Shown here: piece after piece, positions 15,925 through 42,999 of the stretch
How positions within the stretch are numbered: position 1 is the stretch's first letter
How the letters are laid out: each line of letters starts with the position of its first letter
Origin: Qaidamihabitans albus
GTDB taxonomy: Bacteria; Actinomycetota; Actinomycetes; Mycobacteriales; Pseudonocardiaceae
Length of the DNA: 64,000 nt
Reading direction: 5' to 3'
NCBI RefSeq assembly: GCF_016464705.1
Contig: NZ_JAEHOB010000009.1
Location: 1-64,000 of the forward strand
Program-made: the position numbers and the translations under genes
Notes under the pieces: generated by a model
Told to the model about the DNA's origin: nothing
Database searches by the model: none
Seen by the model: the letters and a program-made list of their open reading frames with translations, nothing else

Positions 15925-17627
15925 ACGTGGCAAGCCTGCTGGTGCTCGCCGTACTGCTCGGCGCCGTGATCGTGCTCGGGCTGGTGCTGCGCCCCCGGCG
16001 TGCCTCCACTCTCGAGTTCTACCTCGCGGGCAGGCGGGTCGGCGTGATGACCAACGCCTGCGCGATCTGCGGCGACTACTTCTCCGCGGCGTCCTTCCTC
16101 GGCGTCGCCGCCGCGGTCTACGCCTCGGGTCTCGACGGTGTCTGGTACGCGACCGGTTTCGCCGCGGGCTTCGTGCCGGTGCTGCTCTTCGTCGCCGCAC
16201 CGCTGCGCCGGTTCGGCGAGTTCTCCATCCCGGACTTCCTCGGCCGTAGGCTCGGCTCGGACCGGGTCCGGTTGGTCGCGGTCGTCGTCGTGCAGCTCGT
16301 GATCCTCTCCTACCTGGTTCCGCAGGCCGTCGGCAGCGGCATCACCTGGGAGCTGCTCGTCGGGGACGGCATCGCCGGCCTCACGCCGTACGCCACCGGG
16401 GTCGTGGTGTCCACCGTGGCCATCACCGCGCTGGTGATAGTCGGCGGCATGCGCGGCACCACCTGGACGCAGGCGGTGCAGTTCCTCTTGCTGCTTTCCG
16501 CTTTCATCTGGCTGGTCATCGTCGTGATCGCCTCCGGCTTCGACTATCCGCGGTCCGTCGCCGAGCTCACCACCGACCCGCTGGCGAATCCGGCCGAGGT
16601 GGACGGACAGTGGCGGCTGGAGGCCGAGTCGAACCGGCTCGAGGAGGGGGAGCTCGCGTACTTCGGGCATCCGGGCGGGCGCTACGGGCCGCTCGGTCAG
16701 ATCACCCTGATCATCACGCTCATGCTGGGCACGGCCGGGCTGCCGCACGTGATGAACCGGTACTTCACCAGTCCGACCGGCACCGCGGCCCGGATGACGA
16801 CGGTGTGGGTGCTCGGTCTCGCCGGGCTGTTCTACGCCCTCGCCGTGCTGCTCGGCACGGCGGCACGGTCGCTGATCCCGGGTGCCGCGCCGGATCAGCC
16901 GTGGCTGGCGGAGCTCACCGTCGACGGGGTGCTGCGGGTGCCAGAGCACGCACCGCTCGTGCTCGGGCGTCTCTACGGGGGTGAGGCCGGGCTCGCCGTC
17001 GTGGCGGTCGGGGCACTGGTCGCCGTGCTGTCCACGATCGCGGGGCTGCTCCTCGCGTCGGCGGCCTCGTGGGGGCACGACGTATACGAGCGCCACATCA
17101 ACCCGAACGCCACCCAGCGGCAGGCCGTGTGGGCGGGCCGCGCGGCAGTGGTGGTCGTGGCCGTGCTGTCCGCCGCGCTCGCGCTGGGTCTGCGGCCCTA
17201 CTCGCTGACGGCGCTCTTTCCCTCGATCGTCGCGACGATGGTGACCTGGGCCTTCGCCCTGGCCGGGTCGGCGCTGGCGCCCGTCTTCATCCTGGCGATC
17301 TGGTGGCGCGGCACCACCGCGCGGGGCGCGGTCGCGGGCATGACCGTCGGCGCGGTGACGGCGGTGGGCATGGTAGCGGCGGCTACCGTGATCGGTGACC
17401 GGAGCATCGGCGAACTGCTGCTGACGCCGACTGTGATCGCGGCCCCGCTGGCCGCGGCGGTGACGGTGGTGGTCTCGCGCCGCACCCATCCCCCTGCAGA
17501 GCTGGACCGGTTGTGGGCGAAGCTGCACGGGACCGCGGCCGATCGTCGTGCGGTACGGCTGGCCCGGCTGACCGTTACCGGGATCAACGGCCCGGACGGC
17601 GGGAAAGACTCGGAGAAGAAGCGATGA
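15921..17627 (+). CDS. Sodium:solute symporter, acetate permease ActP-like
   Basis: A 568-aa SSS-family transporter with about 13 helices. Key segments are EFYLAGRRVGVMTNACAICGDYFSAASF, IVGGMRGTTWTQAVQFLLL, and GTAGLPHVMNRYFTSP. The domain order equals that of ActP/MctC carriers for acetate, propionate or pyruvate. It overlaps both the small membrane protein upstream and the LytS-type kinase downstream by four bases, so transporter and sensor are translated together. This suggests that the kinase senses the transported acid or controls the carrier. Confidence 0.93.
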   Translation: MNVASLLVLAVLLGAVIVLGLVLRPRRASTLEFYLAGRRVGVMTNACAICGDYFSAASFLGVAAAVYASGLDGVWYATGFAAGFVPVLLFVAAPLRRFGEFSIPDFLGRRLGSDRVRLVAVVVVQLVILSYLVPQAVGSGITWELLVGDGIAGLTPYATGVVVSTVAITALVIVGGMRGTTWTQAVQFLLLLSAFIWLVIVVIASGFDYPRSVAELTTDPLANPAEVDGQWRLEAESNRLEEGELAYFGHPGGRYGPLGQITLIITLMLGTAGLPHVMNRYFTSPTGTAARMTTVWVLGLAGLFYALAVLLGTAARSLIPGAAPDQPWLAELTVDGVLRVPEHAPLVLGRLYGGEAGLAVVAVGALVAVLSTIAGLLLASAASWGHDVYERHINPNATQRQAVWAGRAAVVVVAVLSAALALGLRPYSLTALFPSIVATMVTWAFALAGSALAPVFILAIWWRGTTARGAVAGMTVGAVTAVGMVAAATVIGDRSIGELLLTPTVIAAPLAAAVTVVVSRRTHPPAELDRLWAKLHGTAADRRAVRLARLTVTGINGPDGGKDSEKKR

Positions 17628-18901
17628 GAAACGGCAGCTTTCCGCTGGCGGCCGCGGTCGCGCTCGCCTGGGGAGTTGTCTACGTCTTCACCCAGGTGCT
17701 CGCCGATCCCCCGCTCGGCGTCGCCACCACCGTCCTGGTCGGCGTCGGCATCACCGTCGTGCTGACGATCGGTTACCCGTCGGCGTTGCGCGGGCCACGC
17801 AGCGCCCGGCCCGTCCGGCGGCCCGCCGGACGGCACGGCGGGCCGCTCGCCGCCGTCGGCCGGTCGATGCCACTGCGCTCGGGCCTGACCACGGAGGCGG
17901 CCCGCCGCGCGGTCCAGCTCCTGCATCCGGTTCTCGGCGGCGACTCCGTGGCGATCACGGACCGGGAACGGGTACTCGCCTTCCTCGGCCCTGGCTCGGA
18001 CCACCACACGATAGGCGACGCGCCGCAGACGGACTCCTCGGCGAAGGTGCTCGCCCGCGGCCGGACGACGGTGGTGCGGAGCAAGGCGAAGCTCGGCTGC
18101 CCGCACCCGGACTGTCCGCTGCAGAGTGCGGTGATCGCTCCGCTCGCGATCGGCAAGCGCGTGATGGGGACGTTGAAGGTCTACCGGTTGGACGACATCC
18201 CACCGCCCCGTGGCGTGGTGGAGGGGCTGGCCGGAATCCTGTCGCTGCATCTCGAACTGGCCGAACTGGACCATGAGCGCAAGCTCGCGGTCGACGCCAA
18301 GCTCAACGCGCTGCGCGCCCAGATCAACCCGCACTTCCTGTTCAACACGCTGAACACCATCTCTTCGAAGGCCCGGACCGACCCGGAGGAGGCGCGCAGG
18401 CTGCTGCTGCGGCTGTCCGACTTCTTCCGCTACGCCGTGCGCCAGGACCGCCATCTCGTCGAGTTCGGCCAGGAGTACTTCTTCGTCCGGACCTACCTCT
18501 CGCTGGAGCAGGCCCGCTACGGCGAGCGCCTGCGGGTGCGTTACGACGTCGAGCCGCAAGTGCTCACGGCGCACGTCCCGGTGCTCACGATCCAGCCGCT
18601 GGTGGAGAACGCGGTCAAGCACGGCCTCGCCGACAAGCTGGACGGGGGTACGGTGACGCTGAAGGCCCGGGTCGATCCGCTGACCAGGACCACCTCGATC
18701 CGGGTGTCCGACGACGGTGTGGGCATGGATCCCGACGTGCTGGAGCGGCTGACCTCCGGCGCCGGTGCGGCGAACGGCGGAGTGGGGCTGCGCAACATCT
18801 CGGAGCGGCTGGAGACCCTCTACGGCGAGCGTTATCGTCTCGACATCCAGTCGCACTACGGTGACGGCACCATTATCGACCTGCGGATTCCGTTGGGGTG
18901 A
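17624..18901 (+). CDS. LytS-type sensor histidine kinase
   Basis: A 425-aa kinase. Two N-terminal helices (residues 7-25 and 33-53) are followed by a GAF-like domain (about 85-210) containing a Cys/His cluster KLGCPHPDCPLQSAV (157-169) that might bind a metal or react to redox. The His_kinase domain has phospho-acceptor His237 in QINPHFLFNTLNTI, and a HATPase domain has N-box PLVENAVKHG and GVGLRNISERL. Its 5' and 3' ends overlap the symporter and the LytR-type regulator genes. The pairing resembles bacterial pyruvate-responsive LytS/LytR systems, but the ligand here is unknown. Confidence 0.92.
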   Translation: MRNGSFPLAAAVALAWGVVYVFTQVLADPPLGVATTVLVGVGITVVLTIGYPSALRGPRSARPVRRPAGRHGGPLAAVGRSMPLRSGLTTEAARRAVQLLHPVLGGDSVAITDRERVLAFLGPGSDHHTIGDAPQTDSSAKVLARGRTTVVRSKAKLGCPHPDCPLQSAVIAPLAIGKRVMGTLKVYRLDDIPPPRGVVEGLAGILSLHLELAELDHERKLAVDAKLNALRAQINPHFLFNTLNTISSKARTDPEEARRLLLRLSDFFRYAVRQDRHLVEFGQEYFFVRTYLSLEQARYGERLRVRYDVEPQVLTAHVPVLTIQPLVENAVKHGLADKLDGGTVTLKARVDPLTRTTSIRVSDDGVGMDPDVLERLTSGAGAANGGVGLRNISERLETLYGERYRLDIQSHYGDGTIIDLRIPLG

Positions 18902-19653
18902 TCGGCATGCGCGCCCGTTGCCTGATCGTCGATGACGAGGCGCCCGCGCGAGCCGAGCTACGCTACCTGCTGAGCACGTTCGAGCACGTCCAGGTGGTTG
19001 GTGAGGCGACCAACGCGGAGGAAGCGCTGGTGCTCCTGCGTTCACTGGCGTACGACGTGGTCTTGCTGGACATCAAAATGCCGGGCGGCACCGGCCTCGA
19101 TGTGGCCGCCGCGGTGCGCAAGGCGCCGAACGCGCCGAAGGTCATCTTCACCACCGCCTACCCGGACTACGCGGTGGCCGCCTTCGACGTGGAAGCCGTC
19201 GACTACCTGATCAAGCCGTTCGACGAGGAGCGGCTCGGCAGGGCACTCGACCGGGCGCTGTCGGGCAGCGCGGCCGAGGACGGCGAGCCGCAACCGCCTC
19301 CGCGGAACACGGCGCCGGATCCGCTGGGGCGCATCCCGGTCCAGCAGGGCGAGCGAACCGTGCTCGTCGACGAGTCGTCGATCCTCTACGCCAGCGCCGC
19401 GCGGGGATACTCCTACCTTCAGCTGTCCGGTGAACGGGTACTGGTGAGCTTCTCGCTGAATGAGCTGGAACGCAGGCTGAGCGGCCATTTCTTCCGGACC
19501 CACCGGTCCTATCTGGTCAACCTGCACCACGTGCGCGAGCTCCGGCCCGACTTCAACGGCGCGCTCGTGCTGGTGCTCGACGACCACCGGCGGAGCCGGG
19601 TGGAGGTCTCCCGCAGGCATGCCCGCGAGCTCCGGCGCCTGCTCGGACTGTAG
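18898..19653 (+). CDS. LytR/AlgR-type response regulator (LytTR DNA-binding domain)
   Basis: A 251-aa regulator. The receiver domain spans residues 6-125, with acidic pocket VDDE (11-14), phospho-acceptor Asp58 in VVLLDIKMPGG, and the Lys in DYLIKPFDEE. A Pro-rich linker leads to a LytTR domain (about 145-250; RGYSYLQLSGERVLVSFSLNELERRL, FFRTHRSYLVNLHHVREL). The GTG start overlaps the kinase stop; an ATG three codons later is possible. It likely controls the symporter operon and perhaps the divergent DUF4212-symporter pair. Confidence 0.93.
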   Translation: MIGMRARCLIVDDEAPARAELRYLLSTFEHVQVVGEATNAEEALVLLRSLAYDVVLLDIKMPGGTGLDVAAAVRKAPNAPKVIFTTAYPDYAVAAFDVEAVDYLIKPFDEERLGRALDRALSGSAAEDGEPQPPPRNTAPDPLGRIPVQQGERTVLVDESSILYASAARGYSYLQLSGERVLVSFSLNELERRLSGHFFRTHRSYLVNLHHVRELRPDFNGALVLVLDDHRRSRVEVSRRHARELRRLLGL

Positions 19654-20490: not shown

Positions 20491-21249
20491 TCAGTAACCG
20501 GCCCGCGGCGGTGTGCTGCCGGCGCTGCCGCGGGTCGCCTCCAGGCCGGTCATGAGCAGGTCCAGTCCGCGCGCGAACGTCGCGTCCTCATCCTCGGGTC
20601 CGAGGTTCGCCGCGAGGGTCGGATAGTCCCCGGCACGCTCGCGGATGTGCTCGTCGGCGGCGTCGCGAGCGCCGGGTGCGCCGATCTGCCGCCAGCTGGC
20701 CTCGGTCAGCGCCGAGCCGACGACATAGTTGGCGAGCGCATGCGCCGCCGCGACCAGGTCGGTTCCGGTGAACCCGGCCCGGGTCAGCGCGGCGTGCAGG
20801 AACTCGGTCCGCCTGAGCACGTTGGGCCCGAGCATCGGGCGCCCGATCAGGGCGGCCGACCAGGGATGCCGCAACATCGCCTCGCGCCATCCGGTGATCA
20901 GGGCGCGGATCTCGGCCCACCACTGCCCCTGCCCCGCCTCGGCGGTGGGCATCTCCACCTCGGCGAAGATCGCGTCCAGGGCCAGGTCGACGACGTCGTC
21001 CTTGGTGCGGACGTGCCAGTACAACGTCGTCGGTCCGGCACCGAGATGCTCGGCGAGCCGGCGCATCGTCAGCCGGCCGGCGCCTTCCGCGTCCAGCAGT
21101 GCCACCGCGGCTTCGACGATGCGGTCCCGAGTCAGCGGCGCATCACGGTACGCGCGGCTCTCCCGCAGCCACACGCTGCCCGGCACACCGTTGCTGCGCC
21201 CGTCACGGCCTCCGCCACGAAACGGCTTTGACTCATTCACGGCGCCCAT
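20491..21249 (-). CDS. TetR-family regulator with tetracycline-repressor-like C-terminus
   Basis: A 252-aa regulator from the ATG at 21249. The HTH occupies about residues 40-87 (RIVEAAVALLDAEGAGRLTMRRLAEHLGAGPTTLYWHVRTKDDVVDLAL), with the YWHV variant typical of TetR_C_1 proteins. The C-terminal ligand domain has the family pattern ending NLGPEDEDATFARGLDLLMTGLEA. It is divergent from the ABC-F gene across 47 bp that must hold both promoters, so it probably represses the ABC-F resistance gene and is induced by the antibiotic. Confidence 0.92.
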   Translation of the reverse strand: MGAVNESKPFRGGGRDGRSNGVPGSVWLRESRAYRDAPLTRDRIVEAAVALLDAEGAGRLTMRRLAEHLGAGPTTLYWHVRTKDDVVDLALDAIFAEVEMPTAEAGQGQWWAEIRALITGWREAMLRHPWSAALIGRPMLGPNVLRRTEFLHAALTRAGFTGTDLVAAAHALANYVVGSALTEASWRQIGAPGARDAADEHIRERAGDYPTLAANLGPEDEDATFARGLDLLMTGLEATRGSAGSTPPRAGY

Positions 21250-21296
21250 CCTAGTATCTCGCTCGATCTCTAGACCAACGTTCGAGAAGAGGAACG

Positions 21297-21356
21297 ATGT
21301 ACGAGACACCGATCGCGTTCGCGTCGGTGCACCTGACGAGCCCCGGGGGGCGGTAG
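21297..21356 (+). CDS. Leader peptide (19 aa) upstream of the ABC-F gene
   Basis: An ATG at 21297, preceded by GAAGAGGAA, opens a 19-codon frame (MYETPIAFASVHLTSPGGR) that ends TAG at 21354-21356, two bases before the ABC-F ATG at 21359. A short translated frame so placed, with its own ribosome site, is the arrangement used by ribosome-stalling leader peptides of antibiotic-resistance ABC-F and erm genes. Without it the ABC-F gene has no obvious ribosome site of its own, since only GGGGGGCGG lies ahead. Translational coupling or drug-induced stalling is therefore likely. Confidence 0.6.
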   Translation: MYETPIAFASVHLTSPGGR

Positions 21357-21358
21357 CG

Positions 21359-22960
21359 ATGGCGCATGTGGCGGCCACCGACCTCAGCTATGCCCTGCCG
21401 GACGGCAGGATGCTGCTCGATCGCGTGTCCTTCCGGGTCGGCAGCGGCGTCACCGCGGGTGTCGTCGGACCGAACGGAGCGGGGAAGACGACCCTGCTCC
21501 GGTTGATCGCCGGGGACGTCCGGCCCAGTAGCGGGGAGCTCGCCAGCAGTGGCGGGCTCGGAGTCATGCGGCAGTTCATCGGGGACCTACGAGATCGCAG
21601 CACTGTCCGGGACCTGCTGCTGTCCGTGGCGCCGGCCCGCGTCCGCGCCAGCACGGCCGCTCTGGCCGCCGCGGAGACGGCACTCGCCGATCTCGGTGAT
21701 GAGCCGAGCCAGCTCAGGTACGCCACGGCACTGAGCGAGCACATCGACGCGGGTGGCTACGAGATCGAGGCCACCTGGAACGCCTGCACCACCGCCGCCC
21801 TCGGAATGTCGTTTGACCAGGCGGCCGACCGCGAGGTGACCACGCTCTCCGGTGGCGAACAGAAGCGGCTGGCGTTGGAGGCGCTGCTCCGCGGCCCGGA
21901 CGAGCTGCTGCTGCTCGACGAACCCGACAACTACCTCGACATCCGCGGCAAGCAGTGGCTCGAACACCGGCTACGGGCCAGCACGAAGACCATCCTGCTG
22001 GTGTCCCACGACCGCCAGCTGCTCGCCAATGCCGCTGATCGCATCGTCACGGTCGAGGACCGCGACGTCTGGGTCCACGGCGAGGGATTCGCGACCTACG
22101 CGCAGGCCCGCCGGCACCGCATCGACCGGCTGGACGAGCGCCGCCGCCGGTGGAACGACGAGCACCGCAGGCTCACCACGCTGGTCCGCACACTGCGCCA
22201 GACCGCCGCGCGCAACGACTCCGTTGGCTCGGCCTACCGCGCCGCCCGGACCCGGTTGGCTCGCTTCGAGGACGCCGGACCGCCGCAGCGTCCGCCCAGG
22301 GAGCAGAACATCAGGGTTCGCCTTCGCGGTGGCCGCACGGGCAAACGTGCGCTGATCTGCGATCGGCTGGAGCTCCCCGGGCTGGTGGCTCCCTTCGACC
22401 TGGAGGTGTGGTTCGGCGAGCGCATCGCGATCCTGGGCTCCAACGGTTCGGGCAAGTCGCGGTTCCTGAGCCTGCTCGCGCAGAGCCCACCGGTCGAGCA
22501 GCCCTCGATTCGGCACAACGGGAACGTTTCCCTCGGCGCTCGCGTGCTACCCGGACACTTCGCGCAGACCCATATCCGGCCGGACCTGCACGGACGCAGA
22601 CCCGCGGACATCGTGATGGCCGACTGCCGGATGGAGCGCAACGACGCCATGTCGGCACTCGCCCGGTACGAGATCGCGCCGGCCTGGAACCAGCCGTTCG
22701 AGTCCCTGTCCGGCGGACAGCAGGCGCGACTGCAGATCCTGCTGCTCGAACTCACCGGGGCGACCATGCTCCTGCTCGACGAACCCACCGACAACCTCGA
22801 TCTGGCCAGCGCCGACGCGCTGCAGCACGGACTGGGGAGGTTCAGCGGCACCGTTCTCGCCGTCACGCACGATCGCTGGTTCACCGCCGGCTTCGACCGC
22901 TACCTGGTGTTCGGCGGGGACGGTCGCGTCCGCGAGACGGACGAACCCGTGTGGACCTGA
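21359..22960 (+). CDS. ABC-F family ATP-binding protein (ribosomal protection type)
   Basis: A 533-aa soluble protein with two ABC domains and no transmembrane helices. Domain 1 has Walker A GPNGAGKTT (37-45), signature LSGGEQKR and Walker B LLLLDEPDNYLD. The inter-domain linker is Arg-rich and helical (RRHRIDRLDERRRRWNDEHRR). Domain 2 has GSNGSGKS, LSGGQQAR and LLLLDEPTDNLD. Relatives include macrolide, lincosamide and pleuromutilin resistance proteins of producers, which displace drug from the ribosome. The divergent TetR and the 19-aa leader peptide support drug-inducible expression. Which drug cannot be told from sequence. Confidence 0.9.
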   Translation: MAHVAATDLSYALPDGRMLLDRVSFRVGSGVTAGVVGPNGAGKTTLLRLIAGDVRPSSGELASSGGLGVMRQFIGDLRDRSTVRDLLLSVAPARVRASTAALAAAETALADLGDEPSQLRYATALSEHIDAGGYEIEATWNACTTAALGMSFDQAADREVTTLSGGEQKRLALEALLRGPDELLLLDEPDNYLDIRGKQWLEHRLRASTKTILLVSHDRQLLANAADRIVTVEDRDVWVHGEGFATYAQARRHRIDRLDERRRRWNDEHRRLTTLVRTLRQTAARNDSVGSAYRAARTRLARFEDAGPPQRPPREQNIRVRLRGGRTGKRALICDRLELPGLVAPFDLEVWFGERIAILGSNGSGKSRFLSLLAQSPPVEQPSIRHNGNVSLGARVLPGHFAQTHIRPDLHGRRPADIVMADCRMERNDAMSALARYEIAPAWNQPFESLSGGQQARLQILLLELTGATMLLLDEPTDNLDLASADALQHGLGRFSGTVLAVTHDRWFTAGFDRYLVFGGDGRVRETDEPVWT

Positions 22961-23075
22961 CGTCGGCCTGCCGCACCGGCAACCGGCGGCGCCGCTCGAA
23001 ACACCCGCATAACCTCCTCACCTTCGGGCAATACCAGGGCCGGTGGGGGAACACGGTGACCGACGAGGAGGCGTG

Positions 23076-23297
23076 ATGAACGAGCAACGGCAGGGGGCGC
23101 CGGAGCCGGCGTCGCCGACACCGGAGAAGGACCGCGAGGAGTGGGTCACCGGTGACGAGCCGATGACCGGCCCGCAGCGTTCCTACCTGCACACGCTGGC
23201 GCAGGAGGCGGGCGAAGAGGTGCCCGACGACATGAGCAAGGCCCGCGCGTCCGAGCTGATCGACGAGCTCAAGCAACGCACCGGTCGCGGGACCTGA
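23076..23297 (+). CDS. DUF3072 protein
   Basis: A 73-aa protein with a polar, Pro/Glu-rich start and the DUF3072 core DEPMTGPQRSYLHTLAQEAGEEVPDDMSKARASELIDELK (second half). The fold is probably a short helical unit; related segments occur in proteins that bind nucleic acid or act as adaptors, but the role is unknown. GAGGAGG precedes the ATG at 23076. A strong hairpin terminator follows the stop. Confidence 0.85.
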   Translation: MNEQRQGAPEPASPTPEKDREEWVTGDEPMTGPQRSYLHTLAQEAGEEVPDDMSKARASELIDELKQRTGRGT

Positions 23298-23546: not shown

Positions 23547-23595
23547 CCCCAATGTGGCGTCAGGTGCGTTGAACGCACCTGATGCCACATTGGGG
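23547..23595. repeat. 49-bp palindromic element (CCAATGTGGC type)
   Basis: The arms run from CCCCAATGTGGC to GCCACATTGGGG around a single central base at 23571, 24 bp each with one mismatch. A second 49-bp copy lies at 42935-42983 with the same outer 12 bp and a different, still largely paired centre. Both follow a stop codon within about 20 bp, so they may double as terminators. Confidence 0.8.
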
Positions 23596-42934: not shown

Positions 42935-42983
42935 CCCCAATGTGGCAGCCGTCGCGTTCAACGCAACCGACGCCACATTGGGG
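42935..42983. repeat. 49-bp palindromic element, second copy
   Basis: Same outer arms as the element at 23547 (CCCCAATGTGGC / GCCACATTGGGG) around a central base at 42959. The inner arms differ from the first copy and pair with four mismatches. It begins four bases after the hydrolase stop codon. Confidence 0.8.
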
Positions 42984-42999
42984 CGGCCAGATCGCCGCC

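Follow-up and report, generated by a model that had tools for sequence, protein, structure and literature searches.

The window, as the whole 64,000-nucleotide stretch of Qaidamihabitans albus DNA analyzed here is called, belongs to a genome of 6.5 Mb. Its plus strand carries a gene for a protein of 533 aa, starting from the ATG at 21359 (21359-22960); PF00005 matches this protein twice, revealing the two ABC domains that identify it as an ABC-F ATPase. On the minus strand a divergent gene codes for a TetR-family repressor of the TetR_C_1 type (20491-21249), whose start is either the ATG at 21249 or a conserved GTG at 21240. The leader/ABC-F transcript is predicted to be served by a sigma-70-like promoter, TTGACT-18-TAGTAT (21228-21257, plus strand), the sole promoter-like site in 20900-23200, where 0.1 was expected. 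It is followed by a putative TetR operator, CTAGACCAACGTTCGAG (21270-21286), by the Shine-Dalgarno (SD) sequence AGAGGA (21288-21293, plus strand), with a short spacer of 3-4 nt, and by a 19-codon ORF, MYETPIAFASVHLTSPGGR, which runs on the plus strand from the ATG at 21297 to the TAG at 21354-21356. The leader described in the original prediction, with its own start and SD and a stop two nucleotides before the ABC-F ATG (TAG-CG-ATG), is indeed present at 21297-21356, and a short ORF with its own ribosome-binding site (RBS) is thus found between the promoter and the ABC-F gene. Its frame differs from that of ABC-F, making it an out-of-frame short ORF like the ppe2 uORF. Since the promoter lies upstream of the leader, the latter should be transcribed; judging from the promoter position, a transcript that includes the leader should start near 21264. 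This gives the ABC-F gene a 5' UTR of about 95 nt, with the leader starting about 33 nt after the inferred transcription start.

Neighbour genes at 17513-19653 resemble, when read by eye, a LytS-type sensor kinase and a LytTR response regulator. On the other side, a near-perfect 49-bp palindrome at 23547-23595, CCAATGTGGCGTCAGGTGCGTTGAACGCACCTGATGCCACATTGG, is a dispersed repeat. It occupies about 20 sites of this genome, among them 42935-42984 on the same contig; G329, a genome of the same genus, has it at several dozen.

Distribution of the cassette and of its leader

Protein search revealed an ABC-F match in 203 of 390 family genomes, the closest relatives within the family having about 70-72% identity; searches of the class and of a further family, f19, added more than 30 ABC-F proteins at 68-72% identity. 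These two families are named here Pseudonocardiaceae-type and, for f19, Streptosporangiaceae-type, labels that we take to be appropriate from the presence of Nonomuraea and Spongiactinospora among the matches listed. In a FastTree tree, the window ABC-F groups with those of L010, L012, L013, L014, L015 and L016 (support 1.0), and its N-terminus, M-A-H-V, matches the N-termini of the relatives.

TetR relatives with 52-64% identity are found upstream of ABC-F, and divergent to it, in 35 of the related loci examined. Most relatives have the -10 box CTAGTA(T/C) and, after it, a dyad; variants of the operator core are kept in L010, L012, L013, L014 and L016, while Streptosporangiaceae-type relatives have a different dyad in the same place. 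The exact operator sequence occurs once in the window's genome, and further near matches genome-wide are no more than those given by a reversed control. Since the divergent TetR, the operator-like sequence and the -10 box recur in dozens of relatives, comparison supports the putative TetR control layer of the original prediction. The conserved unit is, on these comparisons, a predicted TetR-controlled ABC-F cassette, common to Pseudonocardiaceae-type and Streptosporangiaceae-type actinomycetes. In L017 (1480-1530) the TetR and ABC-F genes are apparently joined: ABC-F codons 1-26 are missing, as is the entire promoter region; this junction is either a real deletion or an assembly join.

The 19-codon leader is absent in all the 35 related loci with an adjoining TetR relative, and its first 26 nt precede an ABC-F gene nowhere else in the 390 family genomes. 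A search with the promoter and leader DNA in 395 class genomes gave matches at chance level only; a recurrent 29-base match in one genus was rejected, as it apparently lies inside an unrelated longer coding frame. Matches to the leader start pattern in the 390 family genomes were discarded too, being internal KFETPIAFA-type segments of another gene and one unrelated sequence. The frame is thus absent from every relative examined, the very outcome that the original prediction had named as evidence against itself. As neither peptide nor frame is conserved, purifying selection cannot be shown, and the leader is, on this comparison, a putative lineage-specific uORF.

In five close Pseudonocardiaceae-type relatives (L012, L013, L014, L016 and L018), which have the promoter and operator region in common with the window, it is ABC-F whose start lies 32-50 nt downstream of the inferred transcription start, at about the position of the window's leader start. 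L010 (1300-1500) contains, between the same operator and ABC-F, an ORF of 63-66 codons with a hydrophobic stretch, whose TAA directly precedes the ABC-F GTG. This ORF has no homology to the window leader, and the search for its relatives within its genus gave chance-level matches only. A simple sequence model gives a stop so near to the ABC-F start a probability of about 6% in the window and 2% in L010.

Translation signals and RNA folding

The best anti-SD duplex of the leader has a predicted energy of -8.5 kcal/mol. GC at the three codon positions is 11/19, 11/19 and 18/19; this pattern looks coding-like, the excess at the third position being reached by 0.3% of random reorderings (p = 0.003). 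The 95-nt UTR was subjected to 20,000 dinucleotide shuffles: 1.2% of these contained an ATG uORF with an SD and 8 codons or more whose end fell between -20 and +5 of the ABC-F start, and 0.4% one with 15 codons or more whose end fell between -10 and +4. With comparable uORFs in about 1% of shuffles, many such cases are expected across several thousand genes: the leader stands out when a single gene is considered, but would not among the thousands of a genome, the case having been picked by eye.

The ABC-F gene had been thought to possess little ribosome site of its own. This is contradicted by the SD-like GGGGGG at 21345-21350 (plus strand, 8-nt spacer), whose anti-SD duplex reaches -9.4 kcal/mol (leader, -8.5). 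Such a strength is matched by less than 1% of random window positions and lies inside the range of the 35 relatives (-5.5 to -15.1 kcal/mol), many of which have an SD such as GGAGG near the same position. The gene has an ordinary SD of its own, predicted to be as strong as that of the leader.

Folding predicts pairing of the ABC-F start region, whose opening cost (20.6 kcal/mol, compared to a mean of 16.4, sd 3.5, in the relatives) is somewhat high yet inside their spread. The fold of the UTR is no stronger than that of shuffles (z 0.38 and -0.16). A 9-bp hairpin is predicted within leader codons 4-11 (21307-21329, plus strand; locally -13.6 kcal/mol); its z of -2.8 refers to a segment chosen around the hairpin itself, the surrounding region not being exceptional, and the ABC-F SD lies outside the hairpin. 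The same positions form a dyad with perfect arms, CACCGA-T-CGC-GTTC-GCG-TCGGTG, which may represent either a hairpin of the RNA or a second site on the DNA. No intrinsic terminator was found on the plus strand, and no Rfam family matches the leader/UTR.

Possible roles of the leader

The DNA architecture is directly visible: the leader stop falls within a few nucleotides of the downstream start and the promoter lies upstream of the uORF, as in coupled uORFs, and the TAG-CG-ATG geometry would allow coupling. TetR would repress the promoter from the operator at 21270-21286, until released by some ligand. Ribosomes would then bind at the RBS that directly follows the operator, the place where the closest relatives start ABC-F, translate the 19 codons and terminate two bases before the ABC-F ATG; here they could re-initiate, or their passage could open the paired ABC-F start region. 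Since ABC-F has its own SD, such coupling would raise expression, not be essential. Our preferred reading, to which we give about an even chance, is therefore a TetR-controlled ABC-F gene with a lineage-specific uORF in the 5' UTR, probably translated and contributing at most coupling to the ABC-F start. Coupling or ribosome delivery is the most likely working role of the leader, an incidental frame being nearly as likely. In favour of this reading are the position of the leader downstream of the promoter, its SD, the 2-nt gap, the rarity in shuffles, the codon-position GC, the start position of the close relatives and the predicted pairing of the ABC-F start, together with the unrelated L010 ORF that ends exactly at the ABC-F GTG. 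A precedent is ppe2 of Mycobacterium tuberculosis, whose uORF is required for expression, mainly by termination-reinitiation (PMC11260477); short ORFs that deliver ribosomes have been reviewed (PMC12548453). Against it are the unconserved peptide and frame, the SD of ABC-F, which may have no need of coupling, the predicted pairing of the ABC-F start within the spread of the relatives and a fold no stronger than in shuffles. A broader idea, which we consider rather improbable, is that inserts separating the TetR operator from ABC-F have at least twice, in the window and in L010, gained unrelated ORFs reaching within 2 nt of the ABC-F start, selection keeping a ribosome-delivering frame and not the peptide.

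The most serious alternative, somewhat short of an even chance, is that the leader is an incidental frame of the 5' UTR, ABC-F initiating on its own SD and control being exerted by TetR alone, as in the relatives. The ABC-F SD in the same range as in the leaderless relatives, the lack of conservation, the many comparable uORFs expected per genome and the spacer of merely 3-4 nt at the leader SD all agree with this view; the third-position GC and the tight stop/start spacing are harder to reconcile with it, as is the second, unrelated ORF of L010, which stops right where ABC-F begins. The coding-like bias could also indicate that ABC-F is longer and has the leader as its true N-terminus, joined through a frameshift or a sequence error at the G6 run of the junction, where one extra G would give MYETPIAFASVHLTSPGGAVAMAHV...; a minor frameshifted uORF fusion has been seen for ppe2 (PMC11260477). 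This is very improbable, as no relative is so extended, each starting either at the homologous M-A/G-H-V or no more than two residues from it, and the ATG at 21359 is an ABC-F start preceded by its own SD. Least probable of all is that the 5' end of ABC-F was duplicated and that the leader is its decayed copy, left at the ancestral start: the leader does lie where close relatives start, and SVHLTS-PGGR resembles SHLTQTLPDGR (peptide p 0.015 with the single relative L013; DNA p 0.008-0.27), but against all N-termini together the likeness is not significant (p 0.045-0.064).

The original prediction proposed drug-induced stalling as an alternative to translational coupling; in such stalling an antibiotic would arrest the ribosome in the 19-codon ORF and so switch on ABC-F, as for lmrC, tiaA/are5sc and msrD. 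General precedent exists in resistance ABC-F genes, actinobacterial ones included (PMC8546547, PMC12421871, PMC10314930), and a stalled ribosome could disturb the local hairpin at 21307-21329. However, known ABC-F attenuators combine a uORF with a terminator or an RBS-hiding fold (PMC10201436, PMC8546547, PMC12421871, PMC10314930), and conserved uORFs have been identified for several of them (PMC10201436, PMC12421871), whereas the frame of the window is unique. Neither a terminator nor an RBS-hiding hairpin that switches with leader translation was found; the local hairpin lacks the ABC-F SD, and the absence of an exceptional fold or an Rfam match also speaks against this mechanism. The window peptide has no significant similarity to seven known leaders (ErmCL, ErmAL1, ErmBL, ErmDL, MsrDL, MefAL and TiaAL), the best match being ErmAL1, with p 0.054 before correction.

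The ABC-F protein itself had been called resistance-type, and this is not established by the profile searches. Its score is 264.7 with ribo_prot_ABC_F (cut-off 380) and 219.5 with ABCF_producer (cut-off 800), the models for Msr, Vga, Lsa, Sal, OptrA and CarA are all far below cut-off, and among solved structures EttA proteins come closest to it. Patchiness of occurrence inside a genus has served as a hint of resistance ABC-F proteins (PMC6723617); at E<=1e-80 this ABC-F has no match in G329, the second of just two genomes of the genus compared. Membership of one of the actinobacterial AAF groups (PMC6723617) is possible, and a resistance-type function is a guess. With the frame unconserved, no terminator or notable fold, no significant likeness of the peptide and an ABC-F below the curated resistance cut-offs, drug-induced stalling has no support beyond analogy, and we consider it highly unlikely.

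An ABC-F gene with a leader ORF does not automatically imply drug-sensing attenuation, and this tempting reading is corrected here. The inducer of the TetR-controlled cassette could reveal what ABC-F protects against, and the leader represents a small test case of whether unconserved uORFs act by delivering ribosomes.

Comparison with known systems

The TetR-ABC-F cassettes of Streptosporangiaceae-type and Pseudonocardiaceae-type relatives are like the window in their divergent TetR, -10 box, operator dyad and ABC-F, at about 68-72% identity; differently from it, they are devoid of the 19-codon leader, in place of which L010 has its unrelated ORF of 63-66 codons. Among characterized genes, lmrC of S. 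lincolnensis and tiaA/are5sc of S. coelicolor are also actinobacterial ABC-F genes behind a short uORF (PMC8546547, PMC12421871). Their 5' UTRs are longer (194 nt for tiaA and 232 nt for are5sc, compared to about 95 nt in the window) and they undergo ribosome-mediated attenuation through terminator/anti-terminator folds (PMC8546547, PMC12421871), while no terminator was found at the window's leader; the uORFs of tiaA/are5sc are conserved (PMC12421871), that of the window is unique. The msrD leader, MYLIFM, is likewise a short ORF upstream of an ABC-F gene (PMC10314930); erythromycin stalls the ribosome at the stop codon of msrDL, controlling an intrinsic terminator (PMC10314930), whereas the window's leader has no terminator behind it and no significant similarity to this peptide. 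The ppe2 uORF of M. tuberculosis resembles the window leader in being out of frame, with its own SD and its stop at the start of the main gene (PMC11260477). The ppe2 uORF stop overlaps the start of the main gene (AUGA), which has no SD (PMC11260477), while in the window stop and start are 2 nt apart and ABC-F has its SD.
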